A DNA stretch of 37,155 nt. It comes from a virus. The notes under the pieces are model-generated. The model searched no databases and was not told where the DNA came from. It worked only from the letters and a program-made list of their open reading frames with translations. This document shows positions 554 through 30,541 of the stretch, in pieces. The position numbers and the translations under genes were made by a program. The stretch's first letter is position 1. Every line of letters starts with the position of its first letter. The stretch is from positions 1 to 37,155 of IMG/VR virus record IMGVR_UViG_3300047321_000528; one strand, written 5' to 3'.

Positions 554-648
554 TGCCGGACGGAGCCTTGATGGCAGACTGGGGATATTACCTCATCCTC
601 GCCGCCTGGGCTCTCATCCTGCTCCTCATCGCCTGGAGAAAACGATGA
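553..648 (+). CDS. Tiny single-pass membrane protein between queE and folE
   Basis: Open frame of 31 codons if started at ATG 553 (TAATG overlap with the queE stop), or 25 aa if started at ATG 571. The 571 start is preceded by GGAG at 562-565 with a 5-base spacer, so it may be the real one. The product is MADWGYY followed by about 15 hydrophobic residues rich in Leu, Ile and Ala, and ends WRKR, which fits a single N-out/C-in transmembrane helix with a positive-inside tail. Its stop overlaps the folE start as ATGA (645-648), the junction style used throughout this operon. I do not recognise a family. It may be a small membrane-active phage protein. Confidence 0.55.
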   Translation: MPDGALMADWGYYLILAAWALILLLIAWRKR

Positions 649-1205
649 CCAAGAAACGCAGTCGCTTTAACACCGCCAAAATGGAGCAAGGCGTTACGCT
701 CCTCCTACAAGGAATGGGAATCGATGTCGAAAACGACAACTACAAAGAGACGCCGAAACGCGTCGCCAGCCTCTTCAAAGAAATGCTCTCCCCAGCCGCA
801 TCTAACTGGAAGACTTTTCCCACATCGTACCGGGGCGCCGTCCTCCTTCGGAACCACGAAGTCATCGGCCTCTGTCCGCATCACTTGCAGCCGGTTCCAA
901 TGCGAGTACACGTTGCGTATATTCCCAAGAAAAAGGCTCTGGGCCTATCTAAACTGGCTCGAGCAGTTGAAGAGCGACTGTCCATGCCCGTCCTGCAGGA
1001 GCAACTTACACAAGATGTTGCAGATGCTCTCGAAGCACACCTCGAGCCTATCGGGTGCTGTGTTATCATCACCGGCCGGCACGGATGCATGCAGTTTCGA
1101 GGCATACGTTCCGACGCTGACGTCGTCACTTCCGCGATGCGAGGAGCCTTCTTTGTTGATTCGAAGGCCCGTGAAGAAATCATGATGCTGATCGGGAGGC
1201 CGTAG
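645..1205 (+). CDS. folE: GTP cyclohydrolase I (FolE)
   Basis: Converts GTP to 7,8-dihydroneopterin triphosphate, the first step toward folate and, in this context, toward 7-deazaguanines. The 186-aa length is typical of bacterial FolE. Visible signatures are GLCPHHLQPVPMRVHVAYIP (zinc Cys and catalytic His region), ALGLSKLARAVE, MPVLQEQLTQDVADAL and GRHGCMQFRGI (second zinc Cys and RG loop), all in family order. The start is ATG 645 with GGAGA at 635-639. It overlaps the preceding small gene as ATGA, and its TAG (1203-1205) overlaps the GTG start of the polymerase gene. Its position beside QueE argues for a preQ0 role rather than host folate supply. QueD and QueC are not in the window and would have to come from elsewhere in the genome or from the host. 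Confidence 0.95.
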   Translation: MTKKRSRFNTAKMEQGVTLLLQGMGIDVENDNYKETPKRVASLFKEMLSPAASNWKTFPTSYRGAVLLRNHEVIGLCPHHLQPVPMRVHVAYIPKKKALGLSKLARAVEERLSMPVLQEQLTQDVADALEAHLEPIGCCVIITGRHGCMQFRGIRSDADVVTSAMRGAFFVDSKAREEIMMLIGRP

Positions 1206-3565: not shown

Positions 3566-4287
3566 AGCTAGGAATGGAAATTCCAAAGTCACACGCAGAG
3601 GAGTTGAGTCGCCTGACGGACTTCGACTTCGCCATAGCACACAGGATTGTCGGAGACAGGGAGTATAGAGACTTCTTCGTCGGTCAACGTGAGAAGGGAA
3701 GAACGATCATTCTCGACAACGGCTTCCACGAACTCGGGCATATGGCGAAGAGGGAAGACATCGTCATCGCACAATCGATCATCGCGGCGGACATCGTGAT
3801 TAGCCCTGACCGCATCGACGACGTAGAGTTCACTCGGAACAACCTCGAATGGTGCTTGGAGCAGTTCAACCTTCGTACTGCGGCAGTGATCGTCGGAGAC
3901 GATGAAGGTGATAGAATGGGCCTGCTCGAGCTCTACCGAATGATGTACGTACCGACGATCTGCTTCCCCTATCGAAGAGATCGTCAAGCGTGGATAGCGG
4001 AGTTCGATATCCACCACAAAGGCTGGGACCTCGGGAAGCAAGTACATTTCCTCGGAATGCAGGACCTCTCCGAGGCGAGGAGAGCAGCAACACGTTTTCC
4101 GAAAGGGACGTTCGACACCTCGAAGCCGTTGAAGTGGGGATATAAAGTAGAGCGCCTGGACAACGTGACGACCACTCACGGTGCCTGGCCTCACTACGAC
4201 AGCTTCCTCGACGCGCCTGAAATGGAACTTGACCAGATGGCCACTGCCCTCTATAACGTGGCATGCCTTCGGAGGTTTCTCGCGTGA
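3562..4287 (+). CDS. TGT/DpdA-like putative 7-deazaguanine DNA transglycosylase
   Basis: A 241-aa protein that looks like a short member of the tRNA-guanine transglycosylase superfamily. Family-like features in order are IILDNGFHELG (D52-N53-G54), IVISPDRIDD (78-87, compare the PD..gD segment of TGT-like barrels), VHFLGMQD (161-168, compare H-LG) and FDTSKP (184-189, a possible second catalytic Asp). The C-terminal zinc-binding Cys cluster of true bacterial TGT is absent, as expected for DpdA-type DNA enzymes. Phage DpdA swaps guanine in DNA for preQ0 or a derivative. Linkage with queE and folE makes that role the best reading, but the assignment rests on short motifs and context. The start overlaps the polymerase stop (ATGA). 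The 3' end overlaps the next gene. Confidence 0.65.
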   Translation: MKLGMEIPKSHAEELSRLTDFDFAIAHRIVGDREYRDFFVGQREKGRTIILDNGFHELGHMAKREDIVIAQSIIAADIVISPDRIDDVEFTRNNLEWCLEQFNLRTAAVIVGDDEGDRMGLLELYRMMYVPTICFPYRRDRQAWIAEFDIHHKGWDLGKQVHFLGMQDLSEARRAATRFPKGTFDTSKPLKWGYKVERLDNVTTTHGAWPHYDSFLDAPEMELDQMATALYNVACLRRFLA

Positions 4288-6079: not shown

Positions 6080-6524
6080 ACCCAAGCTCGACTACAGCTG
6101 CTGGCACCGTGGCACGCTTGAGTATGTCAAGCTGTTCAGAGTGGCGAACCCCCTTCCAGGGATACCCCTCGAAGGTATCGAAGAGCCTCTCGTGCAACAG
6201 CTGTCCCAAGGCACGGTTCCTCTGATGACCTGGGTTGACCCAAACTTCTGCTCCGCGCCACTCTGGCGTATAGTCCTGTGGGTCGGCGTAGAGGTGGATG
6301 GAGAGAATTACGTCGCAGTTCTCTCCATCCGCAATGCTGAGGCGCTCGTCGAGCAGCACGTCCTGATCGAGCACCCGCGTGAGAACCGGAGTATGTTTTC
6401 CTTCGGCCTTCATAAGGGACTCGAGTTGACGTACGACCGCGAGCGTGATATCTTTCTCGCGGTACCTCTTGAAGGGGTAGCCGATGTCCTTGCCTCCATG
6501 CCCAGCGTCAAGACATACTTTCAC
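5973..6524 (-). CDS. N-acetylmuramoyl-L-alanine amidase (Amidase_3), endolysin
   Basis: A 183-aa single-domain cell-wall amidase that cleaves the bond between N-acetylmuramic acid and the stem peptide. Visible signatures are CLDAGHGGKD (zinc His), YREKDITLAV (zinc Glu), ILSIHLYAD (second zinc His in the SIHxNA position) and PAAVVELGFID (catalytic Glu). No signal peptide or separate wall-binding domain is visible, so release depends on a holin or similar. The start is a GTG (6524-6522) sharing one base with the TAG of the giant virion protein (TAGTG). It is the last gene of the minus-strand late operon. Its 3' end overlaps the convergent helix-turn-helix gene by 107 bases. Confidence 0.92.
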   Translation of the reverse strand: MKVCLDAGHGGKDIGYPFKRYREKDITLAVVRQLESLMKAEGKHTPVLTRVLDQDVLLDERLSIADGENCDVILSIHLYADPQDYTPEWRGAEVWVNPGHQRNRALGQLLHERLFDTFEGYPWKGVRHSEQLDILKRATVPAAVVELGFIDLRHEAEFLSRPGVQHMAAQALLSALDAYAERL

Positions 6525-9500
6525 TAGTGTTTCCTCTTGTCCGTGGAGGGTAAGCCGAGGGCCTTCTTAACGCCTTCGGCATACTCTCCATCCATGAGGT
6601 CTCCTGCCGCGCCCGCGACGCCTCTCGCTGCAACCGTCGGGAACGGAACGAGCTGCTTCCAAGCGTTGCCTAGGCGCTTTGCCTGGATGCGTGCGACTGG
6701 ATCGTCATCCCCTGACGTCTTCGCAGCGAACGTGGCCATGCCCTCCTGCGCGATCTGGGCGAGTGGTCCACCCTGATAAGAGAGCGGCGCGAAGAACGTC
6801 CACCGTGCAAAGTCCACGCCGAAGACTTCAGACATGCCGTAGTAGAGAGTGGCGTTGACACCGGCCCAGCGTGCGATGTTCTTGAGGTTCTCTTCTTTCG
6901 ATCCTCGTCGAAACATCATGTTGTTCCCGACCCACTCCACATACCAAGCTGGCCACGTGCCGTACTGAAAGAGGAGGCGGCCGACGGTCCCCTGCATGGC
7001 GGCAGGAGCATTGCCCCGGCTGTAGAGGAACTGCGACTCCTTCGCGAAGTCCAGTGCCATAACGTGTGCAGCTGTGGCCGGCTTGCCCTCCGCCAGAAGA
7101 TTCTTCACGTTCGTCATCAAGGGACCATCAACCATCATCCCGGTCTGTGGATCCTTGATTCGGATGTCCCTCATCTGCAACTTGCTGTCGACGAGGAACT
7201 TCTCCCAGTTCCCCTTCTCCAGAAACTCCTTCGCGGCCTTCTCAGCATGGAAGTACTGCGCGTGATACGCCGCGACCTTATTGAAGTCGTCCGCCGACTG
7301 ATACATCGCCACGCCCTTGCTCATCAAGTCGGAGATCTGTCCCAGAGGCTTCGCCACGTGAGAGAGTGTGTCGGACTCCAAGACGGCCTTCTGGATGTTC
7401 GAGAGGCCCTGCAGCATCGTGTCGGTGTTAACGATGTCCAGCGCCTCCATCGACTTGCGCAACGCGGGATCCCTCTTCCACTCCAAGGCCTTCTTAATGC
7501 CGTAGGACGTTGCCTTCGACCCCATTACAGGGAAGACCGTCTGCAACGTCTGGAGGTAGTTGCGTGCAGTCACGCCGACGTTGAATGCGAGGTTGGCGAA
7601 GTAGTTCGCCCCTGCAAACGTGTTGATGATGTCCTGAGACTGCTCCAGGGTGAGATCCATCTTCAACCGCTTCGCCACGTTCTGAATGCCGATGGCCATG
7701 CCGTAGCCCATACGGTCCTGAGCGTGCATGGCTTCCGCCCGGTGCCTGTTGAACAGCTGAAGCATGTGCTCGGTGGCGGGATCGGAGGTCGTTCCCATCA
7801 ACTCGCCCATCGTCTTGTTCATCGCTTCCCACTGCGGTGCGAGGAACTTCTCGTGGGCAATGGCCGTGGCGTAGCGCTTCATCGTTGAGGAGAAGTCGTA
7901 CTCCCTCTCGTCAAAGGCAAGGTCCTCCATGAACCCGGAAGACTTCCTTGTGATGGGAGAAGGCGGCCGCCCACTCTCATACGGACGCATTTCCTTCTCC
8001 GTTATGTTGTGCTTACGGAAGAAGGGAAGTTCGGCAAGTTCCTTGTCGGGATCCAAATCCATGTCCGTGAGGAACTTCCTCATCGTGCTATCGAGGAGCT
8101 TCTCACCCTTCTGCGCGAGTTCGGAGAACTGCGAGTAGTCTCCTTGTATCCGGGCAAAGTGCGTCGGGTCGGAGTAGCGAAGTTCGAAGAGCTGCCCTAC
8201 CTGCTGTCGCTCTGCAGCCTTGATCCCTCGCGTCAGCGCGTGAATCTGGTTGAACACAGGGTTCGTGAAGCGAGTGACCTGCGTACGACCGTGATCGATC
8301 TCTTCCCACCAGCGATAGAAGGGAATGCCCGTCGCCGCCTGATACTCCTTGAAGAGTTGCATCGGGACGCGGAAGATGTCGAGGAACTTGTAGCCGCGAG
8401 TGTTCGGGATGATCTTCTCAACTTGCTCGTGCATGTCGGGCGTCAGCTCGAGGAGCGGAGGACGCTCGTCTCCGCTCCCTCCGCCGATCGGACTGAGAAG
8501 ATCGCCGATGTCGTGAAGTTCGTCCGGCACGCCTTCATCTCCTGGGCCCGGAGCACGATCCATCGGCTCGGAAAGTTTCGTCGTGACCTTCTTCCCGCCA
8601 ATGTTAATCGTTTCCGGTCCCTGAGGCATACCGCGCAGCCGCTGCGTTAGAGCGGGGTCGTAGGAGTTGAGAGGAGGCTTGGCGGCGAGCTGAGCACCGA
8701 TCTTCTCTCGGAGTTCGGGGCCATACGTGCGGAACGCTCCATGCGCATCGTCGCGAATGCCGCCGAGTCTGAAAAGACTGGGCTTGTTCCACTGCCGCAG
8801 CTGTGCGTAGAGAAGGGCGTCGCCTGCATCTCGATTGCCGAAGAGGAAGTCAATGCCCCTTCCCTTCCCATACTGCGAGAGCTGGAAGAGGATGTTCTGA
8901 GTTGACTTCGACAGGTCGATGCCCATCTTCTTCAACGTCTTTTGCTGCTGGAGGAGCTTCGCCCTGACGGAGTTCTCCTCGTATACGATGAAGCGTGAAG
9001 GTTCCGGAACAGTGTCCTTCGCGCCAGGCTTGTGCGGGATGTCCGCAGGAGGCAACGTGGTCTCCGCCTCAGTCGCACCCGCTTGAAGAACTTTATTCTT
9101 TCCCTTCCCTACGACCGTAGAGACCTTCCCTGTACGCTCCGGCATGACGACAGGGTCGAGGTTCAAGATTTCGAACCTTCCCCCGACGTTCTGAGACTTC
9201 GCAAGGCCTTGCACAGCCGCTCGAAGCGACTCTTCGTCACGCGAGGAGATGAGTGTTGCAGGACTCCTTCCCCCGACGACTTCGTTGATGGACGACTCCT
9301 GAACCTTGACTGCACGGTAGCGGGCGGTGTCGATCGGATGATCTGTTGCTCTCTCGGCCCCGCCTGCTGCCCAAGCTTCGAGGAGGTCCTTCTCCAGAAC
9401 GGGAGAGTACTTCTTCATGCGGGGCTCGCGAGTGAGGAAGGACAAAGCCTCCTCGCCCGAAGGGAAGCGGGTCGTGCGCCCTGCGCTCCTCAGGAGGACC

Positions 9501-12500
9501 TCGTAGCCGTTAGGAATCGCTTGGTAGCCACGGCTCTGTGCGACTGCCGTCAGGCTATGCCAAGCGACAGGTCGGAAGCGCTGCGTGGAAAGCTCTCCCA
9601 GGGACCATTCGAAGGGCGCGTGAAGATCGTCCCACTGACCTCCGCTAATCGTGATACGGACTTTCGTCGAGGGATCCGCACCTTCCTCGATCATCACCTT
9701 GGCCATACGTTTGGCCGACGCCATCTCGAGATGCTGGGACGCAGTCTCTTTCGAAATTGCGAAGGAGGGCGGACGCTCGACGATGTCTCCAGGCTCAAGT
9801 TCGTTGGGAGTGCGTTCGAGAGTTCGAGGATGCGTCTCGCTGGTGAAGTCTCCTGCCCCGTAGTCCGTTGCCTTCGACGAAGAGAAGCCTGCATCGAACT
9901 TCGGGGCAGCTTCGAACTCGTCCGCTTGAGAAGCGAACGTCTCATACTGATTCCCGAGCGACGTCTTCTTGCGGAGAGTTTCGCCTCGCCCAGGGACTTC
10001 CGTCTCCGTCCAGGCGCGACGAGAACGCAGGCGTCCCGAGACTTCGTCACCCGCAGTAATCCCTCCCTTGACGCGAACTGTTCGATTGGAGAAGGTATAC
10101 TCCTTGTCCTGAAGGGCCTTCTCTCGCTGGAACAGTCCGAAACGCCTGGTGATAGAGTCTTCCTGCCGATACCCAAGATCTGCAGCACCCGTAGTCGTAT
10201 ATATCTTTTGCGGATGCTGATAGGCTGCGATCGAGTCGATCGGTCCTACATCCGTGACCTTTGCTTCGTACCCGAGGACGGGATGCCTATTCTCCATCTT
10301 CCAGTCGCCACGCAGAGGATCGTACTGCTGCGTGTTGGCAATGGAGAACGTCACACCTTCGTTGTGGAGGAAGATTCGAGGTTGATGCCCGACAAGGTGA
10401 TCATCGTCCACGATAATCTTCATCGCGGGGTTCTCCCACTCCTTCGAGGGATTGTCGAACGCTTCCAGCTCGACCTTCCCTCCCTGGAGATCGATTACTC
10501 CATGACGCACCTCCCCAGTCGAGTGAGGCTTCAGCCCCATCTGTCCCTTCATCCCTGCATACTCGAGAACGGTATGCACGGGAGTAAGCTGCGCAAGCGT
10601 CCTGCGTTCAACCTTCCCGCCGTCCGTGCGAACTTGCACCTCGAACGGGCTGTAGGAGGGAGAGTATGGATTGTCCTTGTTCAGCTCGACGTTCTTCGCG
10701 AGAGACGCACGAGCCTCCGCTAGCTTCTCAGCTGCACCTTTCGGTCGGCCTGCGGCCTCGTCAGAGAGCGTCGACTGATCCTTCGAATACGCGTGAGCAT
10801 CGTCCCGGATCTTCTGCATGCGCGTGCGACGGTCTCCGCCCTTCTCCGCTCTGCGCTTGACAACCGCTTCAGCTTCAGGCGTGAGCTGTCCGGCAGCCAT
10901 GCGTCTTTCAACTTCCCTCAGCGTATTCTCCCGCTTAGCGGCGTTCATCAGCCTGACAAGCGTGTTCTCCCCGCTGCGCCGCTGAAAACCGCCCACGCCC
11001 ATTTCATTCGTACTTCGGCTTCCGCTGGACTCATCCCACTTAAACAGCGGACCCTGGATGCCTTTTGGCGTCGATAGATCTTGCGCCTGGGAACCTGGCT
11101 TACGGAAGTCTTCTCGAACGAGGCGCTCTGCGCGAGGCTTCGCCATCGTGTCGATCTCTGCCTGAGAATACCCTCTCGTAAGAAGCTCCGCCTCTGTCTC
11201 AGGCGAGATCATATTCTCGGCCTTAAGAGTGTTACCGAGCGCCTTAACTCTTGCGGCAGTCCTTTCCGAAAGCTCCGCACCGATGACCTTCATCTGATCG
11301 AGGTCTTTTGACTCGCGAGCAGCTGCAAGCGCCTCTAGAAGATCGCCTCTCGAGGCATGTTTCAGCGCCGTCGTAATCTCCTCACCCTTCAACACATCAT
11401 CTGCGGAGGCAGGATCAATCACGCTGACGATCTTCCCAGTCACGTCATCTCGAACGCTCTGCCCGTGAGTCGGCCTGACGGACGTCGCGGCAAACGTGCC
11501 CTTCTTCACATCCGTAAAGACCGGCTTCGGAGCGTCCTGCCCGTAGAAGATGTTGGAGAACCGTGTCCATGCCCCGCGATGCTGGACTTCCGCGTGAGCC
11601 ATCTTCACTTCGAAGCCTGCACGCTTCATCTGATCGACTTGCGTGCGCAGCGTCGTTGTGTCTGCCTCGAACTTCGAAATCACATGAGAGCCTTCGGTCT
11701 TCGGCCTGTCCGCTGGATCACTCTGGAACCAGAACGGGATCTGCTGCGTTTCGCCCGTAGTCGGATTCCTCTGTTCGATGATCCCTCGAATTCCGAAGTT
11801 CGGACTCTCCGCGCGAAGATTCGGATTTACATTTACGTCCGACGGGAGGACGCTGTGGAACCAATCTGCCTTGGCCTTGCTGACGATCGCTCCAAGCGGG
11901 CTTGCTGCAGCCGTTGAGTTCTTTCGGAGCTCCTCTTCAAGCTTGTTGACAACCCGAATGTCTGCTCCAACGCCTCCTGCTCTGAGCGCGTCAATGTGTG
12001 TTGCGACGATGTCAGAGGACGTTCCGAGGTCCCGCGCAATCTTTTCTGTGGCATCTCGTGCTACTTTCTCCCCGATCTCCGCGGTCCAGGCTTTCCGCAT
12101 AAGAGGCATGCCGACGACTTCAAACATGCCTCCGACGACAAAGTCCTTCGCCATGTGAGCAAAGCGACTTTCCCCGTTGTCGATCTGTGCCATGGAAGAG
12201 AGCGACGCGGCCGAGAGTCCCGCCGCACCGACGCTACGTATGGCCTTGCCTGTGATCGAGAGAGCTTTCGCCGTGCCTGTGACTTCTCCGCCCAGGCCAT
12301 ACGTCACGACGTTCGCAGGAAGCCCTCCAATCATCTCTCCGATGACTTCGGGGGCCATAGCGACAGTATCGCGGACCGAGCCGTCGATTGTTCCGCGAGA
12401 GTCAAGCTCCTGGATAAGGTTACGACGATGGATGTCACCTTCTCTTTGGAGCCTTGCCCAGTCGTCCGCGAAGAAGGAAGAAACTGGATAGAGCAAACCT

Positions 12501-13066
12501 CGCTTGATACCGCTTTTCGCGGCTTCGGTTGCTTCTCGCCAGAGACGGCCGGTTTCCGGAGTCGTAATCGGAGCCCCCGTAGGAACCTTCGATAGCTGTT
12601 TTGAATGCCCGGCATGGACGATTTCCGTGTTGAATTCGTTACCGTCTTCGTCCTGGAGCACCGCGAGAGCGCGACCGTACTTATCTTCGGTATCGCCCCG
12701 CTGGAGCTTTACAGTGACCCATTTCCCGTTTGCCATCTTCTTCGTGAACGCCGAGGCCTCAGGTCCACCCTTCTGCACGCCCAGGCGCGGATGTACGGTC
12801 TCAGGCGTGTTGATCCCGGCAAGACGTACGCGACCAAAGCCTGCAAGATCGAGAGTGTCACCGTCGACGACATTCTCAACTTTGAACTTCCGTCCAGGCT
12901 TGTCGGTGCTCGCACCTGAGAGATACGCGTTCATCTCGTCCATGAAGGTGACAGGGCGACCCTTGTCAAGCTGTGCCTGACTCGTCTCGACAAGCGCTTT
13001 CTTCTCGTCCGCCTTCTTCTTCTCAGCGTCGAGATACGCTTGCATGCCTCCGAGGAAGCTACTCAT
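6524..13066 (-). CDS. Giant (2180 aa) internal virion / ejection-type protein with N-terminal SNase-like nuclease domain
   Basis: By size and position this is the last of three consecutive large virion genes, the place of T7-type internal or ejected proteins. Residues 4-13 and 41-50 carry a repeated short helix motif (FLGGMQAYLD, FMDEMNAYLS). Residues about 62-192 match staphylococcal nuclease closely: VVDGDTL (D70), RLAGINTPE (R81, N86, E89), GGPEASAFTKKM and DKYGRALA (R132). The Ca-ligand Asp40 of SNase is Asn here. Residues about 235-325 are small-residue-rich and hydrophobic and could contact membrane. The rest is long, mostly polar and unrecognised, with helical segments in the C-terminal third. 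No lytic transglycosylase motif is visible. The start overlaps the upstream stop (ATGA at 13063-13066). A polyvalent-type injected protein is the likely class; virion location is inferred from context. Confidence 0.8.
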   Translation of the reverse strand: MSSFLGGMQAYLDAEKKKADEKKALVETSQAQLDKGRPVTFMDEMNAYLSGASTDKPGRKFKVENVVDGDTLDLAGFGRVRLAGINTPETVHPRLGVQKGGPEASAFTKKMANGKWVTVKLQRGDTEDKYGRALAVLQDEDGNEFNTEIVHAGHSKQLSKVPTGAPITTPETGRLWREATEAAKSGIKRGLLYPVSSFFADDWARLQREGDIHRRNLIQELDSRGTIDGSVRDTVAMAPEVIGEMIGGLPANVVTYGLGGEVTGTAKALSITGKAIRSVGAAGLSAASLSSMAQIDNGESRFAHMAKDFVVGGMFEVVGMPLMRKAWTAEIGEKVARDATEKIARDLGTSSDIVATHIDALRAGGVGADIRVVNKLEEELRKNSTAAASPLGAIVSKAKADWFHSVLPSDVNVNPNLRAESPNFGIRGIIEQRNPTTGETQQIPFWFQSDPADRPKTEGSHVISKFEADTTTLRTQVDQMKRAGFEVKMAHAEVQHRGAWTRFSNIFYGQDAPKPVFTDVKKGTFAATSVRPTHGQSVRDDVTGKIVSVIDPASADDVLKGEEITTALKHASRGDLLEALAAARESKDLDQMKVIGAELSERTAARVKALGNTLKAENMISPETEAELLTRGYSQAEIDTMAKPRAERLVREDFRKPGSQAQDLSTPKGIQGPLFKWDESSGSRSTNEMGVGGFQRRSGENTLVRLMNAAKRENTLREVERRMAAGQLTPEAEAVVKRRAEKGGDRRTRMQKIRDDAHAYSKDQSTLSDEAAGRPKGAAEKLAEARASLAKNVELNKDNPYSPSYSPFEVQVRTDGGKVERRTLAQLTPVHTVLEYAGMKGQMGLKPHSTGEVRHGVIDLQGGKVELEAFDNPSKEWENPAMKIIVDDDHLVGHQPRIFLHNEGVTFSIANTQQYDPLRGDWKMENRHPVLGYEAKVTDVGPIDSIAAYQHPQKIYTTTGAADLGYRQEDSITRRFGLFQREKALQDKEYTFSNRTVRVKGGITAGDEVSGRLRSRRAWTETEVPGRGETLRKKTSLGNQYETFASQADEFEAAPKFDAGFSSSKATDYGAGDFTSETHPRTLERTPNELEPGDIVERPPSFAISKETASQHLEMASAKRMAKVMIEEGADPSTKVRITISGGQWDDLHAPFEWSLGELSTQRFRPVAWHSLTAVAQSRGYQAIPNGYEVLLRSAGRTTRFPSGEEALSFLTREPRMKKYSPVLEKDLLEAWAAGGAERATDHPIDTARYRAVKVQESSINEVVGGRSPATLISSRDEESLRAAVQGLAKSQNVGGRFEILNLDPVVMPERTGKVSTVVGKGKNKVLQAGATEAETTLPPADIPHKPGAKDTVPEPSRFIVYEENSVRAKLLQQQKTLKKMGIDLSKSTQNILFQLSQYGKGRGIDFLFGNRDAGDALLYAQLRQWNKPSLFRLGGIRDDAHGAFRTYGPELREKIGAQLAAKPPLNSYDPALTQRLRGMPQGPETINIGGKKVTTKLSEPMDRAPGPGDEGVPDELHDIGDLLSPIGGGSGDERPPLLELTPDMHEQVEKIIPNTRGYKFLDIFRVPMQLFKEYQAATGIPFYRWWEEIDHGRTQVTRFTNPVFNQIHALTRGIKAAERQQVGQLFELRYSDPTHFARIQGDYSQFSELAQKGEKLLDSTMRKFLTDMDLDPDKELAELPFFRKHNITEKEMRPYESGRPPSPITRKSSGFMEDLAFDEREYDFSSTMKRYATAIAHEKFLAPQWEAMNKTMGELMGTTSDPATEHMLQLFNRHRAEAMHAQDRMGYGMAIGIQNVAKRLKMDLTLEQSQDIINTFAGANYFANLAFNVGVTARNYLQTLQTVFPVMGSKATSYGIKKALEWKRDPALRKSMEALDIVNTDTMLQGLSNIQKAVLESDTLSHVAKPLGQISDLMSKGVAMYQSADDFNKVAAYHAQYFHAEKAAKEFLEKGNWEKFLVDSKLQMRDIRIKDPQTGMMVDGPLMTNVKNLLAEGKPATAAHVMALDFAKESQFLYSRGNAPAAMQGTVGRLLFQYGTWPAWYVEWVGNNMMFRRGSKEENLKNIARWAGVNATLYYGMSEVFGVDFARWTFFAPLSYQGGPLAQIAQEGMATFAAKTSGDDDPVARIQAKRLGNAWKQLVPFPTVAARGVAGAAGDLMDGEYAEGVKKALGLPSTDKRKH

Positions 13067-19835: not shown

Positions 19836-20615
19836 CTATGCCACGAAAATCGCCACTGCTCCCGCGTTATACCCTGCCCTGCCAGGAGTCGGGCCGCCGC
19901 TTATGGGGTTGTTATTTGCAGATGCTCCCCCGCCGCCGCCTGCTCCAATGGCAAAGCCTCTCCACCCAATTCCTGTACCGCCTGTGCCGCCTGCTCCCGG
20001 TGGGCCATGACCCGGATCCTGTGGAGGATCACCACTGCCAGGTCTACCACCGCCATCGCCACCGTGACCCAGAGAAGCACCTCCACCGCAACCTCCGCCT
20101 CCTCCGCTGCCTGGAGAGTAGGCCCCGGAGTACGTGCCAGAATCGCCGTCCGGTGCGACAGTTACGAACTGTCCTCCCTGCCCTCCTATCCGACCAGGAA
20201 AGACGAGAGCTCCAATGTTCGTCGGGACGGGTGCGTTACGATTGCCTGTCCCTCCCGCCGCAACAATCGCCGGACCGCCTAACACCGCAATGAAAGAGTT
20301 TCCGTTGACGTTCGCGCCCTGCAGGCCTAGGTGATACGTAGTCCCAGGAACGAGAACGACGTTGCCGCTGCGCACTTCTCCACAGCCTCCTCCGTTGCCT
20401 CCATTCGCGTCAATGCCACCGTTCCCTCCATAAGCGCCATTCCCGCAGATCTCCCAGGAGAGCGTGATTTCTCCTTGCACGGTGATCATGTAAGTCCCTG
20501 GCGCCGCAACGAAGTATAGAACGGGATTCGCCTTCATGTCCTGAGTGCCGTTCGTCGGCCCAGTCCACGTGAGGAGAGGCGGCCCGTATGCCTTGCCTAG
20601 CTTCAATCCAATCAT
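19836..20615 (-). CDS. Glycine-rich receptor-binding / fibre-tip protein (259 aa)
   Basis: An N-terminal beta segment (PVLYFVAAPGTYMITVQGEI) leads into a long glycine-rich region with many GG, GNGG and GGGG tracts (for example GGNGGIDANGGNGGGCG and SPGSGGGGGCGGGASLGHGG). It closes with AGYNAGAVAIFVA. This is the pattern of phage glycine-rich tip proteins that fold into a polyglycine-type sandwich and contact the receptor. Its start overlaps the preceding fibre gene as ATGA (20612-20615), which suits a fibre plus tip pair. It is related in style to the N-terminal third of the 755-aa protein upstream in the operon. Receptor binding is inferred. Confidence 0.75.
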   Translation of the reverse strand: MIGLKLGKAYGPPLLTWTGPTNGTQDMKANPVLYFVAAPGTYMITVQGEITLSWEICGNGAYGGNGGIDANGGNGGGCGEVRSGNVVLVPGTTYHLGLQGANVNGNSFIAVLGGPAIVAAGGTGNRNAPVPTNIGALVFPGRIGGQGGQFVTVAPDGDSGTYSGAYSPGSGGGGGCGGGASLGHGGDGGGRPGSGDPPQDPGHGPPGAGGTGGTGIGWRGFAIGAGGGGGASANNNPISGGPTPGRAGYNAGAVAIFVA

Positions 20616-21751
20616 GGCGCGTAGTTCTGACCCACGACACTTCCGTGCCAGGTCGCTCCACCGTTCCGAGTGAAGAAGAAGTACTTGTCAATGCGCCCGC
20701 CGGCCGCCGTGATGACTGGAGCTCCGCCGCCTGGCCAGTGGACAATGGAAGTGAACCACGGCCACGAGAACGATCCCGCAGTGTTGATGATCAGACAGAA
20801 GCTGCCATACTTGCCGGAGACAGGAACGCTCGTCACGACCGTATTACCAATGGCCTGGTTATACGTAAACTCGAACACGCTGCCTAAGGCCATGTCGATG
20901 GTCAGGCCGCCGCCAATGATCGCAATCGCGGTGTGCTCTTCGGAGTATGCCGTGAAGTCCTGTCTCGAGGCCCAGGCGTTCGGAGACCCGAGCAACCCCA
21001 CGCCAGTCATGTAGACGCCGGTCGTGTCCTGGAAGTACGCAGGGTGAACCGCGGGAATCCTACCGTCAGGCTGAATGAGGGGAACGCTGGCTGACCCCGT
21101 ATACACCGTATTCTTCAACGTCGTATAACGGTCGACGACAAGGTCTCCCGTGATATGCATGCTGTCCGCTGTGATCTGTCCCGACACCGTCGAGTTGAAA
21201 ACCACAGGGCCGTTGAAGGTGACGCCGCCTGCGAAAGTGGCAGAGCCCGCGATAAGGGTCGCGATGTAGGCCTGGGCCCAGCGCAGCGCCGGAGCACCCA
21301 AGTTGTACGTGTTGTCCGTCTGCGGAACGATGTGTCCTGAAGCCGTCGACTTCGCGAAGAAGACTCCGTCCTTCGAAAGGGAAGACTGTACGACACCGTT
21401 GACGAGGAACTCGAAGATCTTCGATGTAGGCGCGGACGCGGTGTCCGTGATGTTCATCCAGATCGCAGAAGGCTCTCCCGTGGTGTTCCACGTCGTCTCC
21501 AACTCGATCATTCCGGCGTCGCTGTCGCCCGTAATCGAATTCGCCTGATGCGTGTAGATGAACGGAAGATTGTCCAACGCACGGAAGGGCAGGGAGACAG
21601 GATACCCATCCCAATCCTGTGACGTGTTCCAGATGAAGGCGACTGACATCCTCTCGGACACGTCAATCTTCATCGCCCTCATGTGATTGTCGATCGAAGA
21701 AGCAAACTCCGAGCCGAGAGGCGAGCCATTATTCCAGGCATTCGTGAGCAT
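20612..21751 (-). CDS. Tail fibre protein (379 aa)
   Basis: Contains the common fibre shaft block VPQTDNTYNLGAPALRWAQA around mid-protein, followed by short repeats (SATFAGGVTFNGPVVFNSTV, SMHITGDLVVDRYTTL) typical of trimeric beta-helical shafts. The C-terminal domain holds beta segments ending GKYGSFCLIINTAGSFSWPW and an aromatic tail. The N terminus (MLTNAWNNGSPLGSEFASS) is a plausible attachment segment. The start shares one base with the stop of the tube/adaptor gene (TAATG). Its stop overlaps the start of the glycine-rich tip protein. The fibre assignment is good; what it binds is unknown. Confidence 0.82.
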   Translation of the reverse strand: MLTNAWNNGSPLGSEFASSIDNHMRAMKIDVSERMSVAFIWNTSQDWDGYPVSLPFRALDNLPFIYTHQANSITGDSDAGMIELETTWNTTGEPSAIWMNITDTASAPTSKIFEFLVNGVVQSSLSKDGVFFAKSTASGHIVPQTDNTYNLGAPALRWAQAYIATLIAGSATFAGGVTFNGPVVFNSTVSGQITADSMHITGDLVVDRYTTLKNTVYTGSASVPLIQPDGRIPAVHPAYFQDTTGVYMTGVGLLGSPNAWASRQDFTAYSEEHTAIAIIGGGLTIDMALGSVFEFTYNQAIGNTVVTSVPVSGKYGSFCLIINTAGSFSWPWFTSIVHWPGGGAPVITAAGGRIDKYFFFTRNGGATWHGSVVGQNYAP

Positions 21752-22380
21752 TACTTATGCCACCTGTCCCCAGCTTGAAGGCCGGTCTTGTAATCGTTCA
21801 ACTTCTCTGCCCGCTTCGGCAGGTTCATGTCCGACACGTAGGCTTTCGCCTCTCTCGCGGCAAGCTCTGCCTTGTCGAACTCTCGGAGGAAGTTCAGTGC
21901 GTTCTCCGATGAGTACAACTCCAGGATGAGATCGTAGGCCTTCGCGAGGACGGAGATTCCCGTAGTCCACTCGGCGGGCAACCGCCGATACCAGATCTTA
22001 ATGGGGATGTCCGCGTTCGCGGTGGAGTCGAAGTAGAAGCGATTGTTCCACCAGTAGAACCGTGAAGGAGGCCCAGGAGTCTTCGTAATGCCCTGCTCAA
22101 GACGTTCGCGGTCAGCGGGACGACAGATTGCGCCCGAGGCACTGTTCTTCACCATGACAGGCCACCAGAGATCGGTGACGGTGATAGGGAAGATGGAATC
22201 TGTCCCCGTGACAAGCGTCTCGATGCAAATGCCTTCCATCTCGGGATGCTCGTATTCGTTAGAGCACCGGAGGAGTGCATCGTTAATCCACTCACTCCGC
22301 ATGATCGGAGAGACGTCAGTACGATTCCCCACGCGCAGCGCGAGATTCGCATCGATCCGTTCGAAGGTGCGTCTTGCCAT
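21751..22380 (-). CDS. Tail tube / head-tail adaptor-like protein (209 aa)
   Basis: Resembles podoviral tube or adaptor proteins (T7 gp11 / P22 gp4 functional type) in size and layout. It opens with a helical segment containing RSEWINDALLRCSNEYEHPE, continues with a strand-rich centre (SIFPITVTDLWWPVMVKN, SRFYWWNNRFYFDS, IPIKIWYRRLPAEW), and ends with helices (LAKAYDLILELYSSENAL). The start follows the previous stop directly (TAGATG). It shares one base with the next gene. No catalytic motif is seen. The assignment rests on overall pattern and on its position in the tail block. Confidence 0.6.
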   Translation of the reverse strand: MARRTFERIDANLALRVGNRTDVSPIMRSEWINDALLRCSNEYEHPEMEGICIETLVTGTDSIFPITVTDLWWPVMVKNSASGAICRPADRERLEQGITKTPGPPSRFYWWNNRFYFDSTANADIPIKIWYRRLPAEWTTGISVLAKAYDLILELYSSENALNFLREFDKAELAAREAKAYVSDMNLPKRAEKLNDYKTGLQAGDRWHK

Positions 22381-23253: not shown

Positions 23254-23538
23254 CTATGCAGATTTCTTTGCCTTTGGCGCGTCGGTCTTCGTCTTCTGGT
23301 CGACCTCCGCCGTCAGCAATGTCTGACCACCGATGGTCGTACCACCAGTGTTCCAGTTGAAACCGACAGCTTCGCACACGGCAGGTTCTGCCATGCGTAG
23401 CCCGCCCGCGGTATCGAACCACAACGCCCACTGGTTGCCGTTCGTATCGTCGAGATAGATCATTGACGGAGTGTTCACACCCGTCTGTTTCGCGTGGCCG
23501 GTGGCCCCGTACTGCGGACGTGTCGATTTCGATGGCAT
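23254..23538 (-). CDS. Stand-alone copy of tail-fibre N-terminal module (94 aa)
   Basis: The ATG at 23538 has AGGAGG just upstream. The sequence from RPQYGATG to FNWNTGGTTI aligns without gaps over 63 residues to the N terminus of the 686-aa fibre (RPRFGSTG to FNWNYDGNAI) at about 40% identity by my count, including shared TPS, WxLW and FNWN motifs. The C terminus is short and basic (KAKKSA). It is therefore a small paralogue of a fibre-attachment or capping module. It could occupy an equivalent virion site or assist fibre assembly. Those roles are inferred; the similarity itself is visible. Confidence 0.75.
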   Translation of the reverse strand: MPSKSTRPQYGATGHAKQTGVNTPSMIYLDDTNGNQWALWFDTAGGLRMAEPAVCEAVGFNWNTGGTTIGGQTLLTAEVDQKTKTDAPKAKKSA

Positions 23539-24719: not shown

Positions 24720-26987
24720 TTAGATGATCATCGCCACAGGCTGACCTGCGCTGAGCCATTTCAGATTGAACGTTCCGTGACTCTCTGATCGGTTATACCA
24801 CTGAGACGCGATACAAAGAATGTCAGTGCCGCCGAAGAGGTTAGCCGCGTCCCCAGCGACTGTAGGAGGAATCAGACCGTTCTGTCCAGGATACGCTTCA
24901 TACGCATAGCCTAGATTGGTCAGGCCTCCCCAGGGAGTAATCGAACAGGGATACTGGTGCCACGTATCACCTCCCTGCTCATCAGAGAGCAAGTAGTACG
25001 TATTCCCGGTGGTCAACGTGAAGAGTGGCACACTTCCGTAGTTAACCTGAGAATCGACTCCCTTACCGCCAGTAAAGTCGACCGTGGCAGTACGAACGAT
25101 CTGCCCCGCAGCGTCTTTGAGAAGGATACGATGTGAGAGGTTGTTTCCTGGATTCTTATACCGGCCCAGTGCAACAACTCCGTATGCACCCCCCGCAACG
25201 AACTTAATCCCGATAGAGTAGGAGTCCGAGCGCAGCGCGGAGAATGTCTCTTTGTACTGAACAGACGCAGTGACCAAATATCCGTCAATCGTCACGTTCC
25301 CATCCGGAGCGAGGGAAGAGACATTCGCCCAGCTATCCGGACCCCCACAGTGGTATAAGTCCGTCAGCATGTAGCCAGTGTTCGCCTTCAGCACGACAGG
25401 CGCGGGCAGTGGTGCATAGACCCACGTATCCACGGCACCGGGGCCGAGATCGACAACGACACGGGCGATGATCTGCCACTGATCGTTGAGAAGGGCCATT
25501 TCGTGCTGCTGAACACTGTCTGAAAACTTCCACCGCCCTAGGTGTGTAACGAGGCGATCCTTCGCACCTACGGTAAAGTGCATCCCGAGTGTTCCAGGAT
25601 GGTTGGTATGCCGCGTGCTGAGGATCTGATTTACGACCATCCCCGCAGTCGGCAACGAAGTCACAGGAATCACGGAGAAGACTCCGGTTCCTGACGTGCC
25701 ACTCGTAGTCGTGACTGAAACGTTCCAGTTTCCGACAGCTGTCCCCGTGAAGTCCGCCTGAACCTGCGTAGCGCTGTTCACGATGACGTTCGAAACAGTA
25801 ATGCCTCCGCTAACGTTCACCGTGACTGCGCCAGGGGCATCAAAGTTCGTCCCGTTGATATATACGACACGCCTAATGCCAAGAAAGCCCTGAGGAGCAG
25901 CCTCTGCCCAGCCAACAATGCTCGTAATGGTCGGCGCACCAGCAACGACTGTCAGCGTGACGCCTGCACTAGCTCCCACACCGTTGTTCACAGTGAGCGT
26001 GCGTGCGCCTAGTGCAGCACTAGCATCTGCTGTGATGTTTAGCGCAATAAGGGTGTCGGCACCATTCCATGCCGCGAATGGGGCGGTGACACCAGCACCA
26101 GACACGGTACCGTTGCTCCCGTTGAAGAGGTTCGAGCCGAAGACATGAGTGTATTGCGCACCGGCACCGCGAACAACAACGGCGTCATTCACCGCACCCG
26201 TAGTCGTATTGTCTACCTGCGTGATCGTCGGCAGTGGGTCCGCAAACGTGCTAAAATACGCGGTGCCGTAGAACGTGTGAATCCAGTAGCCACCCGACTG
26301 CGTGATCGATCCACCCGTGGCACGTTGAACAGGGCTGGCATAGCGGATGATGATGATCCCAGGCCAGCCATTAGACGGTCCCCATCCACCGGCTGAACCT
26401 CCACCACCACCCCCGTAGCACTGAGGCGCAGTCGCACCACTGTCGTTACCAGCGCCGTTCGCACCAGCAGGACCACCAATACCGCCTGGGCCACCGTCAA
26501 CTTTTCCGCCACCACCACCAGCGGCGTACCATATCGACGAGCCGTTAATCGCGGATCCAATACCCGTACCGCCGTTCGCCGCGACGGTCGAACCTCCGCC
26601 AGCACCGCCACCTCCGCCGCCAAAAATGTTGCCAGCACCTCCGCCTGAGTACCCGTAACCGGCTGTTCCAGCACCGCCGCCGCCGTCAGGCGACGAACCG
26701 CCACCTCCAGAGCCACCGGGACCACCCGTGCGTTGTGACTGATCTGAACCGCCACCGGCTCCACCGCCGCCGCCGGGCACCCAATTCGTAAAGTAATAGA
26801 TGGCGCTGTCACCACCCTTGCCACCAGCTGCGCCAACCGCGCAGTAGTAGTCGAACGACGGATTAGCTGTCGCCGTACCGGACTGGTAGCCTCCGCCTCC
26901 GCCGCCACCTCCGGCGCGACCGTTATTGGTGCAGTTGCCTCCGCCACCGCCACCAGCAACGACGAGGTATTCACAGGTGAGAGGCAT
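24720..26987 (-). CDS. Large adhesin / receptor-binding protein: glycine-rich domain, IPT/TIG-like domain, duplicated beta-sandwich
   Basis: A 755-aa protein. Residues 1 to about 220 form a glycine-rich domain with long GGGGGG runs, closing with GIIIIRYASP and the typical ATGGSITQSGGYWIHTF. The middle has beta domains of the IPT/TIG kind, with INGTNFDAPGAVTVNVSGG and VQADFTGTAVGNWNVSVTTT. The C-terminal part holds two related beta-sandwich repeats resembling DUF4082: one with GMHFTVGAKD, LGRWKF and VDLGPGAVDTWVY, the other with GIKFVAGGAY, LGRYKN and VDFTGGKGVDSQV. This is a modular surface-binding protein. The start shares one base with the preceding fibre stop (TAATG), so the two probably work together. 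The host receptor is unknown. Confidence 0.8.
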   Translation of the reverse strand: MPLTCEYLVVAGGGGGGNCTNNGRAGGGGGGGGYQSGTATANPSFDYYCAVGAAGGKGGDSAIYYFTNWVPGGGGGAGGGSDQSQRTGGPGGSGGGGSSPDGGGGAGTAGYGYSGGGAGNIFGGGGGGAGGGSTVAANGGTGIGSAINGSSIWYAAGGGGGKVDGGPGGIGGPAGANGAGNDSGATAPQCYGGGGGGSAGGWGPSNGWPGIIIIRYASPVQRATGGSITQSGGYWIHTFYGTAYFSTFADPLPTITQVDNTTTGAVNDAVVVRGAGAQYTHVFGSNLFNGSNGTVSGAGVTAPFAAWNGADTLIALNITADASAALGARTLTVNNGVGASAGVTLTVVAGAPTITSIVGWAEAAPQGFLGIRRVVYINGTNFDAPGAVTVNVSGGITVSNVIVNSATQVQADFTGTAVGNWNVSVTTTSGTSGTGVFSVIPVTSLPTAGMVVNQILSTRHTNHPGTLGMHFTVGAKDRLVTHLGRWKFSDSVQQHEMALLNDQWQIIARVVVDLGPGAVDTWVYAPLPAPVVLKANTGYMLTDLYHCGGPDSWANVSSLAPDGNVTIDGYLVTASVQYKETFSALRSDSYSIGIKFVAGGAYGVVALGRYKNPGNNLSHRILLKDAAGQIVRTATVDFTGGKGVDSQVNYGSVPLFTLTTGNTYYLLSDEQGGDTWHQYPCSITPWGGLTNLGYAYEAYPGQNGLIPPTVAGDAANLFGGTDILCIASQWYNRSESHGTFNLKWLSAGQPVAMII

Positions 26988-29047
26988 TACGGAGTAATCT
27001 CCACGATGAGAGAAACATTCAGATTAGTCGGTGAGCCGACCGTCGACGTGATATTTATCAACATCTCGTCTTCGTTGGTGATTGGAATGTTCACCGCGGT
27101 CGTAGTTCGAGTTGGAGTGATCGTATATGTCCCTGACGCCACGTCCGTGCGATAGAGGGTAAAGCCGACGCTCGTACCGGTGTGGATACGTCCACGAATT
27201 CCAACAATCCGGGCGGTCTGCGTACCGGTCAGCGGAATGTACGGTCCAGGAATGAACGTGTTGTTCAGGGAGGTAAGATCGCCAACCAACGACCACGTGA
27301 AAGACGTTCGGAAGGTCGTCGAGGCGACAGGAGAAGAAAGCACCGTGCCTGTCATCAACATTCCCGCGCCCAGGGTGATTTCCTGTACTGCACCTGCGCC
27401 TGAGTCTCCTCGGCCAAAGAGACGAGAAGCGGCCGTTAGTGCGAGAGCGTCTGCTCCTCCAGGCTCGTGGGTCGCGTGATGAGGGCCAGGGGTTGCAACG
27501 ACAGGAGAGAACGTTCCATCCGCACGAAGGTAGTTAACCGTGCCTCCTGGATAGCCGCCGGTATACCGTAGCACGTCCACAGAAAGCTTCGTGTTGGGAA
27601 TCGTCCCGGAGATGTTCGCGGGGTTGATCGGAGTTGTGTTCAACGATCCGAACGTTGCAGAAGGTGCGGTGATCGAGGAGACTGCCATCGCGCCCGTAAT
27701 CTGGTCTCCTCCTCCAACCTCATGTGCAGTTGCGTGCACCCGAGGAGGTCCATCGATTGACGTCGTCAGAACGATCATCTCACCCTGAGTCGCGTGGGCA
27801 CGTGTGACGATGCCTACTCTCTGGGCATAGTTCGGTGCCACAGGAATCGTCGTCGTCATATTCCCGGCGGTCGTGGGAGAGACAAAGAGACGATCGCCCT
27901 CGCTAAACGCCGAAGTGTTCAGCAGCTGCAGAGTGCCGCCAAGAAGCACACGGATGAAGGCGTTTGCATTTCCATTGTCCATCGCAATGCCGACACAAGG
28001 CAGCGTAGAGAGACTGTCCGCGCGAGCAAGGCTGGCAAGAGGATTTGCGCCGTTCGCACCCGAGATGTAGATTGCCTGACCTCGCGTGACCGAAACTCCC
28101 GAAACCTTCGCAACTAGCACGTTGTCTGAGGCAAGCCGAACAGCCTTCGATGCACCGTCTACAATCTCAACCTGGGTATACCCGTTCACGTCAATCGAGT
28201 AGAGACGTGCGGTATTCACCAAGGGATCTGGAGGAATCACGCCTTCAGGCAGATCCAGCCAGGGCGCTGCAAGACCCGTGGTCGAAGAGACAATCCCCGA
28301 GGCGGAGATCGAAGAGGATCCTGCAATCGCTCCTGCCACGTTCACGTCGCTGAGGAAGTTCGCAGCGTTCTGCACGGAAAGTGAGAAAGCGTTCAACGGA
28401 ACGAAGGTCGTGACTTCCGTCGAAGAGGCAGACAAACGCAGTTCCGCCGCAGCTGAGAAGCCTAAGACGCTCGACGCCACGAGATACATGCCCGTGTTCG
28501 GCGCCGAGGCGAAGCTATACGCAGGATTGAGGGCAGTTCCGTCCAGACCGAGAAACTCATCGCTGAAGGTAAGATTCCCCGTGAAGGAGATGTCCCCGTC
28601 CACAACCAGATCAGTGTTGATCGTCAACGCGAGAGGCGTGGCACTGATCTGGGTGTACCCGCCGAAGTCCAGGATGTACCCTGGCGATAGCTTCATGCGG
28701 ATGGTGTTGTAATCCCAACGAAGAATCCCGCCGGCTGAGAAGCCTTCATTGTTTGCGCCTACACGGAATTGCCCCGTGTCATTGTCGAGAGCGTAGGTGT
28801 AAGCGGGGAAGACGGCAGTACCGTCCGGACTCTCGCGGTATGCAATTGCATTCCCGTCATAATTCCAGTTGAACGAGGGATCTTCCGCGCGATCCGCACT
28901 CGCCCAACGAAACGTCCCATCCGTGGCAATCCACAGGTACCAATCCTGCATAGCCGTGTCCCGGAATACATGGGCAGAGGGCGTGATTCCGCCTCTCTCA
29001 CCGTGAAAACCGGTCGACCCGAACCGCGGTCGCTGTGTCTGTGTCAT
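26987..29047 (-). CDS. Tail fibre protein (686 aa)
   Basis: The N-terminal 65 residues (RPRFGSTG, WYLWIATDG, FNWNYDG) match the stand-alone 94-aa protein at 23254-23538. Repeated fibre-shaft units follow: tandem blocks with NPAYSFASAPNTGMYL, FRVGANNEGFSAGGILRW and LGFSAAAELRLSAS are diagnostic of trimeric fibres. A middle module (ARADSLSTLPCVGIAMDNGN, GGTLQLLNTSAFSEGDRLF, HATQGEMIVLTTS) resembles the beta-rich adapter seen in many phage fibres. The C-terminal part includes YLRADGTFSPV and HHATHEPGGADALAL, then a final beta domain. The ATG at 29047 has AAGGA seven bases upstream. It is the first gene after the capsid-module terminator. Confidence 0.88.
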   Translation of the reverse strand: MTQTQRPRFGSTGFHGERGGITPSAHVFRDTAMQDWYLWIATDGTFRWASADRAEDPSFNWNYDGNAIAYRESPDGTAVFPAYTYALDNDTGQFRVGANNEGFSAGGILRWDYNTIRMKLSPGYILDFGGYTQISATPLALTINTDLVVDGDISFTGNLTFSDEFLGLDGTALNPAYSFASAPNTGMYLVASSVLGFSAAAELRLSASSTEVTTFVPLNAFSLSVQNAANFLSDVNVAGAIAGSSSISASGIVSSTTGLAAPWLDLPEGVIPPDPLVNTARLYSIDVNGYTQVEIVDGASKAVRLASDNVLVAKVSGVSVTRGQAIYISGANGANPLASLARADSLSTLPCVGIAMDNGNANAFIRVLLGGTLQLLNTSAFSEGDRLFVSPTTAGNMTTTIPVAPNYAQRVGIVTRAHATQGEMIVLTTSIDGPPRVHATAHEVGGGDQITGAMAVSSITAPSATFGSLNTTPINPANISGTIPNTKLSVDVLRYTGGYPGGTVNYLRADGTFSPVVATPGPHHATHEPGGADALALTAASRLFGRGDSGAGAVQEITLGAGMLMTGTVLSSPVASTTFRTSFTWSLVGDLTSLNNTFIPGPYIPLTGTQTARIVGIRGRIHTGTSVGFTLYRTDVASGTYTITPTRTTTAVNIPITNEDEMLINITSTVGSPTNLNVSLIVEITP

Positions 29048-29081
29048 CGGAAGTCCTTAGCGTCTGTGTGCTTCGCCCACG

Positions 29082-29110
29082 AAAAGGGGGAGAGTGTCCT
29101 GCTCTCCCCC
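29082..29110 (-). terminator. Intrinsic terminator after the major capsid gene
   Basis: A perfect 9-bp GC-rich stem, GGGGGAGAG (29086-29094) with CTCTCCCCC (29102-29110), around a 7-base loop. On the minus-strand transcript it is followed by four U residues (AAAA at 29082-29085 on plus). It lies 8 bases after the capsid gene's stop and about 35 bases before the next gene. It would separate the head module from the fibre module and reduce readthrough into the tail genes. The rest of the 71-base gap shows no clear promoter. Confidence 0.85.
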
Positions 29111-29118
29111 GTATTGCG

Positions 29119-30021
29119 CTAGCCGCCTGAAGATCCGTACACGCCGCGCCATTCGGTGAAACCCTTGGCGTAGCGCGAGTAGATCTTATACAGTGCGTCT
29201 CCCGTGAGGAAGTCGTCGGCCTCGCCCGTCTCCGGCTTGACGCGCCAGAAGAAGTTGAGGTCGTGCTCGTCGCTCAGGACGAACCACGAATCGCTGTCCG
29301 TGAGATACCGCGACAGCAAGTAGTCCATCTTGCCGTCCGACCGCAGAACGTTGATTTCGTTGTTCGCCGTGTACGGCTTGTATTCCGACTCCAGGATTTC
29401 CTTCGCTGCCCATTCGAAGGAGGGGTCGATGATCAGGAGTGAAGGCGACATTACAACCGGACGCCCTCGCTCGTCGACCATCGTCTTGAAGTGGTCCAAA
29501 GCCGCCTGATACGCCGTGGCGGAGAAATCGACATCGACCGTCGGCTTGTTCGCCATCACTGCTCCGCCGTCCAAGCGGGTATGCGCAATGTGGAGAAGAG
29601 GCAGACCGTCCGAGCCGGTGAATGCGGGATTGAAGCCGTTGTTCAGGATGCTCCAGGCATCGACTTCAATCTTGTAAGACGCGGCGCGACCTAGCTCGCT
29701 CGCCATCTTATCCATGATGTGGTAGAGATCGTCATCCCACATCTCGCGGGTGATTCGGAAGCCCAGACCGTAGGACGAGGGCGTGTAGCGAACGCCTGCT
29801 CCCATGATCGGGACATCGAAGCTGATGGGGTCGCCTTCGGGCTTCGGAACCATCGAGCCCAACCCGGCAACCTTCGTGTCTTCTTCGTAAGCCTTCTTCA
29901 TGTCGTGGGTCTTCATGACACCGACCCACTGATTCGGCTGACGATTCAGCGTGTTGAACAACACACGCCAGAGGCCCTCTGCGAGTAGGGCGGAAAATCC
30001 GCCTGTAGAGACTCTTGACAT
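29119..30021 (-). CDS. Major capsid protein, HK97-fold, Mu gpT-like type
   Basis: A 300-aa protein with features of Mu-type/HK97-fold capsid proteins. The N terminus includes FNTLNRQPNQWVGVMKTHDM. The central part has GVRYTPSSYGLGFRITREMW (a typical E-loop or A-domain region), MASELGRAASYKIEVDAWSI, and the spine-like PTVDVDFSATAYQAALDHF. The C-terminal part has VVMSPSLLIIDPSFEWAAKE and SRYLTDSDSWFVLSDEHDLN. No cleaved delta domain is evident; a separate scaffold gene lies two genes upstream. The start is ATG 30021, one base after the previous stop, with GGTGG six bases upstream. A strong terminator follows directly, as expected for a highly expressed gene. Confidence 0.9.
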   Translation of the reverse strand: MSRVSTGGFSALLAEGLWRVLFNTLNRQPNQWVGVMKTHDMKKAYEEDTKVAGLGSMVPKPEGDPISFDVPIMGAGVRYTPSSYGLGFRITREMWDDDLYHIMDKMASELGRAASYKIEVDAWSILNNGFNPAFTGSDGLPLLHIAHTRLDGGAVMANKPTVDVDFSATAYQAALDHFKTMVDERGRPVVMSPSLLIIDPSFEWAAKEILESEYKPYTANNEINVLRSDGKMDYLLSRYLTDSDSWFVLSDEHDLNFFWRVKPETGEADDFLTGDALYKIYSRYAKGFTEWRGVYGSSGG

Positions 30022-30022
30022 G

Positions 30023-30541
30023 TTATGCCACCGCCGTTATGCTGCAGTACGGCGCAGCGAAGGAGAAGACGACCGGAGTGAGCGTGTCGCCCCAGGCGGG
30101 AGTCTTGGCGTCCATCGCCTGCTCCCAGACTTCCCAGATGGTAACGCGTTTCGCTGTGGTATCGCTCTTATTCACGAACCACTTGCCGCTGGCAGCGTTT
30201 TTCGCGATGCCATATGAGAGACCTCGATCGAGGGTGCTTGAGACGCCTGCGCCCTCAGCAGCTGCCGTATCGAGATATCCGAGAAAGAGAGTCGCCGGGT
30301 GGGCCAGGATGATATCCTGACGAGCCACGCCCGACGCCTTGTTCTGTCCGTCCTTAGTCGCAAGGCCCGTAATCATTACCGGATTTGCGCCACACTCTGC
30401 AATGAAACCTGCCACGAAAACAACGGGAGCACCTTGCTTGAAAACTTGATTGGTGCCCTCGGGCAGTTCGATTGAAGGGAGGCCAGGTCCCGAAAGATTA
30501 CGAACGGCGCGAAATGGGATTCGAGTCCACGTATTCGCCAC
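30023..30541 (-). CDS. Putative capsid decoration / head stabilisation protein (172 aa)
   Basis: The start is a GTG at 30541 with AAAGGA seven bases upstream. The protein is small and beta-rich, with SIELPEGTNQVFKQGAPVVF, ECGANPVMITGLATKDG, a self-assembly-like LAHPATLFLGYLDTA and WFVNKSDTTAKRVTIWEVWE. Its place immediately before the major capsid gene is the usual place of decoration proteins. The sequence itself carries no diagnostic motif I can name. The stop lies one base before the capsid start, so the two are coupled. Confidence 0.65.
   Translation of the reverse strand: MANTWTRIPFRAVRNLSGPGLPSIELPEGTNQVFKQGAPVVFVAGFIAECGANPVMITGLATKDGQNKASGVARQDIILAHPATLFLGYLDTAAAEGAGVSSTLDRGLSYGIAKNAASGKWFVNKSDTTAKRVTIWEVWEQAMDAKTPAWGDTLTPVVFSFAAPYCSITAVA

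Follow-up and report, generated by a model that had tools for sequence, protein, structure and literature searches.

In phage phi29, the base domain of the protein gp8.5, which shares its fold with the lambda decoration protein gpD, touches the capsid and bears a spike (PMC7602432). Its free relative, gpD, sits in other phages, and the two are related by fold only. Decoration proteins such as lambda gpD, phage L Dec, T4 Soc, GP4 gp1 and the Pam1 cement protein are small, beta-rich and encoded near the gene for the major capsid protein (MCP). In GP4, gp1 is the cement protein and gp2 the MCP (PMC9698820); the DSL-LC04 record annotates a cement protein right after the MCP gene. T4 Hoc, T5 pb10 and SPP1 gp12 are capsid-surface proteins which serve adhesion, not stability (PMC7602432). 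Capsid-surface adhesion of this kind is proposed here for a fibre carrying a small N-terminal module. To our knowledge, T4 Hoc, T5 pb10 and SPP1 gp12 are one protein each, with no short free anchor paralogue in the same genome.

The DNA analyzed, indicated as the window, is the whole stretch of 37,155 nucleotides of the virus record IMGVR_UViG_3300047321_000528. It codes for the same module twice, as a free protein of 94 aa and at the N-terminus of a 686-aa fibre. As in phi29 gp8.5, a small N-terminal base is followed by an elongated part, contact with the capsid being here a proposal. In contrast to phi29, the free and fused forms show sequence homology and occur together in one genome; the module, predicted to form a three-strand meander, has no significant match to solved decoration proteins, while the gp8.5 base has the gpD fold. 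The module resembles the decoration proteins listed above in being small, beta-rich and located near the MCP gene; its predicted fold, however, differs from the Ig-like fold of GP4 gp1. The preferred reading, to which a probability of about 0.6 is assigned, is that the module is a capsid-surface protein of the decoration type, duplicated in one branch of phages, where one copy became the base of a head fibre.

The features of the window relevant to this reading are the following:

20612..21751, minus strand: separate fibre gene (379 aa) in the tail region, with a different conserved N-terminus; matches tail-fibre PHROGs (E=1.5e-5)
21751..22380, minus strand: conserved 209-aa protein in the neck/tail region, before the 379-aa fibre gene
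23254..23538, minus strand: free module protein (94 aa); residues about 3-72 are the module, residues 73-94 a Lys/Ala-rich tail
26987..29047, minus strand: 686-aa fibre; module, conserved stretch, variable shaft and tip
28838..29047, minus strand: fused module, residues 1-70 of the fibre
29070..29118, minus strand: terminator-like hairpin and T-run, lying between the MCP stop and the fibre start (GGGGGAGAG-CAGGACA-CTCTCCCCC-TTTT)
29119..30021, minus strand: MCP, directly upstream of the fibre (Pfam PF25209, E=2e-18; PF10124, E=2.8e-11)
30023..30541, minus strand: 172-aa protein, directly upstream of the MCP; found in 50 hit loci, nearly all relatives

Homology and predicted structure of the two module copies

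Both module genes lie on the minus strand; a plus-strand reading of the same coordinates was rejected, as its translation contains stops. Aligned by BLASTP, the 94-aa protein and the first 70 or so residues of the fibre share 25 of 67 residues, with no gap (45 bits, E=3e-11). The original prediction had counted about 25 identities by eye over 63 residues: the number is exact, while the alignment extends over 67 columns. The alignment score of 115 is well above those of 2000 shuffled sequences (mean 26, s.d. 4.9, maximum 55), and a profile-profile comparison of window-type free proteins with fibre N-termini is also significant (probability 98.6, E=1.2e-15). The homology supposed originally is therefore real. 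The module is present in exactly two copies in the whole record, and only 46% of their DNA is identical, which indicates an old divergence and not a recent copy. In the pairs tested, dN/dS values of 0.08-0.19 reveal purifying selection on both the free and the fused form. Beyond the module, the fibre features a conserved stretch, 'DTG..R.GANNEGFSAGG.LRWDYNT', reaching about residue 130.

Among relatives, the protein most similar to the 94-aa protein is the MCP-adjacent free protein of locus L004 (58% identity). For this free module, AlphaFold2 predicts a three-strand meander plus a short helix, with a loosely structured start of 25 residues (mean pLDDT 81; strands at 26-30, 36-41 and 47-51, helix at 52-55). 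The model of the fibre N-terminus, whose overall confidence is low (66), reaches 80-87 over the module core and features the same elements (strands at 25-29, 35-40 and 46-50, helix at 51-54). The free and fused forms, originally expected to share a fold, are thus predicted to have equal secondary structure; since both alignments contained free and fused rows, this is an agreement and not an independent test.

No family in Pfam or PHROG matches the module. Foldseek found nothing at E<=0.001 in PDB and BFVD, solved decoration proteins included, and gave weak matches to many small phage proteins; the module and MCP sequences had no useful match in PDB. By tblastn, nothing significant was found for the module in 50,697 phage records, nor was it detected in eight annotated phages whose MCP neighbourhoods were listed. 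A relationship to the DSL-LC04 cement protein was considered and rejected, as the sequences do not match. A likeness to known decoration proteins in sequence or fold is hence not found in any of these sources. Literature searches found no paper on the module.

Distribution and gene arrangement in related phages

The queries for scans of viral contigs were the free protein, the fibre, the MCP and two module alignments, the first of two rows and the second made later; one genome scan was added. The scans yielded loci L003-L059, and an iterated HMM identified the module in 43 open frames and, in a later round, in 57; for most of them by far, E was below 1e-19. Because many loci duplicate one another, counts are given per distinct phage.

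In about 18 distinct uncultured phages (L004, L007, L009, L010, L012, L025, L027-L032, L034-L036, L038, L049, L055), here called free-type, the module is a single free protein of about 73 aa, following the MCP gene. Its start codon lies 1-11 nt past the MCP stop in 17 of the 18; in L049 a hairpin is found between the two genes. The free modules of L012 and L049 carry a C-terminal extension of about 130 residues. Each of six free-type records of 44-50 kb (G002, G004-G008) contains a single module copy, while fibre-type records contain two.

The fibre-type arrangement is restricted to one MCP branch, composed of the window, L006/L020, L021/L022, L024 and L019, where MCPs are 80-97% identical to that of the window. 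Other fibre genes starting with the module, for which a search had been proposed as a check, were indeed found in L006, L019, L021 and L024. The module-bearing fibres share the base-plus-fibre architecture, range from about 280 to 1090 residues, and adjoin the MCP gene or lie one or two small genes away. A second, downstream free copy is present in all four testable fibre-type phages (window, L006, L021, L024), and features a C-terminal extension in L021 and L024.

The module is present in all relatives with an MCP at least 60% identical, wherever the contig covers enough sequence beyond the MCP gene. It is absent after the MCP in L044-L046, whose MCPs are about 40% identical, indicating that the module is a trait of one MCP branch. 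L058 carries a diverged module copy, split from the MCP gene by an open frame (9005-9616) resembling, by eye, a LAGLIDADG homing endonuclease.

A piece of the module, the core hairpin of about 30 residues (YYLWVDT.G.LRI), recurs in other proteins: two carry it near the C-terminus, L056 5302-7167 and L057 4418-7411, one a beta-helix spike and the other large and fibre-like, and it also occurs in L059 458-1171, from Omnitrophota.

The module might be seen as a generic small beta-meander put to unrelated uses, whose sharing would say little about a shared site. The occurrence of the 30-residue piece in the unrelated fibre and spike proteins of L056 and L057, as well as in L059, fits this idea, as do the weak similarities that Foldseek gave to many small phage proteins. 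Within the MCP branch, in contrast, the full module of about 66 residues is conserved, and a copy is always found in or near the MCP slot; the idea is regarded as very improbable.

The original prediction took the module as primarily a tail-fibre N-terminus, with the stand-alone protein as its offshoot. The relatives point the opposite way, as the single copy observed in about 18 of them is free and located after the MCP gene. The free form, in single copy, occurs widely, and fusion is seen in one branch alone, together with a second free copy: the free form is therefore probably ancestral, and the fibre probably acquired a duplicate. In profile comparisons, the window-type free protein is nearer to MCP-adjacent free proteins (E=2.6e-22) than to fibre copies (E=1.2e-15); MCP-adjacent free proteins and fibre copies match with E=1e-19. 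In the module tree, fibre copies group with moderate support (82/90), together with one free copy of L024, and a separate group unites the window, L006 and L021 free copies; support for the tree as a whole is weak, 17 of its 25 inner branches being open and no grouping tried being rejected by AU tests. As judged from the sequences, a single duplication with fusion would be the likeliest history.

Proposed anchoring of the fibre and expression of the free protein

The 686-aa protein had originally been described as a tail fibre. Its gene, though, is not located in the tail cluster: it occupies the MCP-adjacent slot, held by the free module in relatives, behind the terminator-like hairpin, while the tail region contains the separate gene at 20612-21751, which matches tail-fibre families. 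The N-terminal 130 or so residues of this 379-aa fibre are kept in L034, L036 and L038, and occur in relatives of both types; it is the better candidate for a tail fibre. The MCP slot, along with a separate fibre gene in the tail region, makes a head fibre likelier than a tail fibre, and suggests that the 686-aa protein may stand on the virus head. The 209-aa protein encoded before the 379-aa fibre gene is conserved in many relatives read that far. Judged by position alone, it is a candidate adaptor; it has no family match, no useful PDB match and no profile match to annotated adaptors.

Alternatively, the module could attach to the neck, the portal vertex or the tail, with the free protein capping spare sites and the 686-aa protein being an ordinary tail or neck (collar) fibre. 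Podophages often have several receptor-binding proteins. Fibre homologues in L006, L021 and L024 match tail-fibre PHROGs, and that of L006 ends in a Peptidase_S74 chaperone domain, but it is the shaft and chaperone parts that match, and head fibres can have these too. Moreover, in 17 of the 18 free-type phages the free gene goes with the MCP gene and not with genes for the neck or tail. In addition, the tail region contains a second fibre gene, whose N-terminus is different and likewise conserved. This alternative is considered unlikely.

Linkage to the MCP gene, as expected for a decoration-type protein, is observed in the same 17 phages, and in the window the slot is held by the fused copy. 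The free copy of the window lies away from the capsid genes, which counts against a capsid role, and neighbouring genes are no proof of physical contact between their products. The 172-aa protein upstream of the MCP, with no useful match in family libraries or PDB, may be another capsid accessory protein, perhaps the main cement protein; if so, the module would be a second surface protein. The 172-aa protein was also considered as a relative of the DSL-LC04 cement protein and rejected, since the sequences do not match.

A GC-rich hairpin followed by a T-run is found just past the MCP gene in all five fibre-type phages, which are related and not independent cases; by the same criteria, about 5% of random positions reach such a score. 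In 8 of 17 free-type loci, a hairpin with a score of at least 6, or close, is located instead just past the free module (L009, L010, L025, L027, L030, L032, L038; weaker in L058). With hairpins so placed, the capsid expression unit would include the free module and exclude the fibre: the free protein would be co-expressed with the capsid protein, and less of the fibre would be made.

Some phages have small assembly chaperones near fibre genes. The small size of the free protein and the tight coupling of its gene to the MCP gene would also suit a factor or chaperone that serves the fibre or the capsid during assembly and is no part of the virion, the fused copy then reflecting a once-needed partner. 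Yet in about 18 phages the free protein is found with no module-bearing fibre in the record read, so that it is not a dedicated chaperone of that fibre; in addition, N-terminal fusion of a chaperone to a structural fibre is not normal. Such a role appears quite improbable.

According to the preferred capsid-surface reading, the module would normally be free, and translated in step with the MCP. In one phage branch it would have been duplicated: one duplicate would have stayed free and moved downstream, giving the 94-aa protein, while the other would have joined the N-terminus of a fibre, keeping the position behind the capsid gene. Through the fused module the fibre would be fixed to the capsid, as a head fibre, and the free protein would occupy the remaining equivalent sites. 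Of the two roles originally envisaged for the small protein, sharing of one virion site by two complexes is the most economical explanation for free and fused forms in one genome, and the two forms may compete for that site; regulation of fibre attachment finds no support. A more specific proposal is put forward tentatively, as something rather less than probable: a new capsid-surface anchor family, in which the free form fills most sites, the fused form competes with it, and the hairpin after the capsid gene sets fibre number.

If the capsid-surface reading is correct, an intermediate in the origin of head fibres is seen here, from a small capsid protein through duplication to its capture as the base of an adhesin, with all stages traceable by sequence among present-day relatives. 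The module would also be an annotation marker for head fibres, which may be mistaken for tail fibres, and the free and fused proteins would be a natural pair for studying how the number of fibres per virion is set.

Other genes of the window and its relatives

Two glycine-rich proteins are encoded on the minus strand of the window, at 24720-26987 and 19836-20615; that of 755 aa shows similarity to Gly_rich_2 and DUF4082, and L006 yielded no homologue of it. A probable ejection protein of 2180 aa (6524-13066, minus strand) features a staphylococcal-nuclease-like domain near its N-terminus (PF00565, E=3.1e-12).

On the plus strand, a 786-aa frame (1205-3565) fuses a uracil-DNA glycosylase (PF03167, E=1.5e-30) to a family A DNA polymerase (PF00476, E=2.5e-55). 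The region 53-4287, on the same strand, also includes a GTP cyclohydrolase I (PF01227, E=5e-44), a Radical SAM protein scoring below the Pfam cut-off and a 241-aa protein without match, similar by eye to queuosine-type transglycosylases; it is possibly a cluster for 7-deazaguanine DNA modification.

In L005, L007, L009, L010, L028, L031 and L055, genes resembling, by eye, methyltransferases, glycosyltransferases and sugar epimerases are located between the MCP and module genes and the tail genes, suggesting virion glycosylation in free-type phages.
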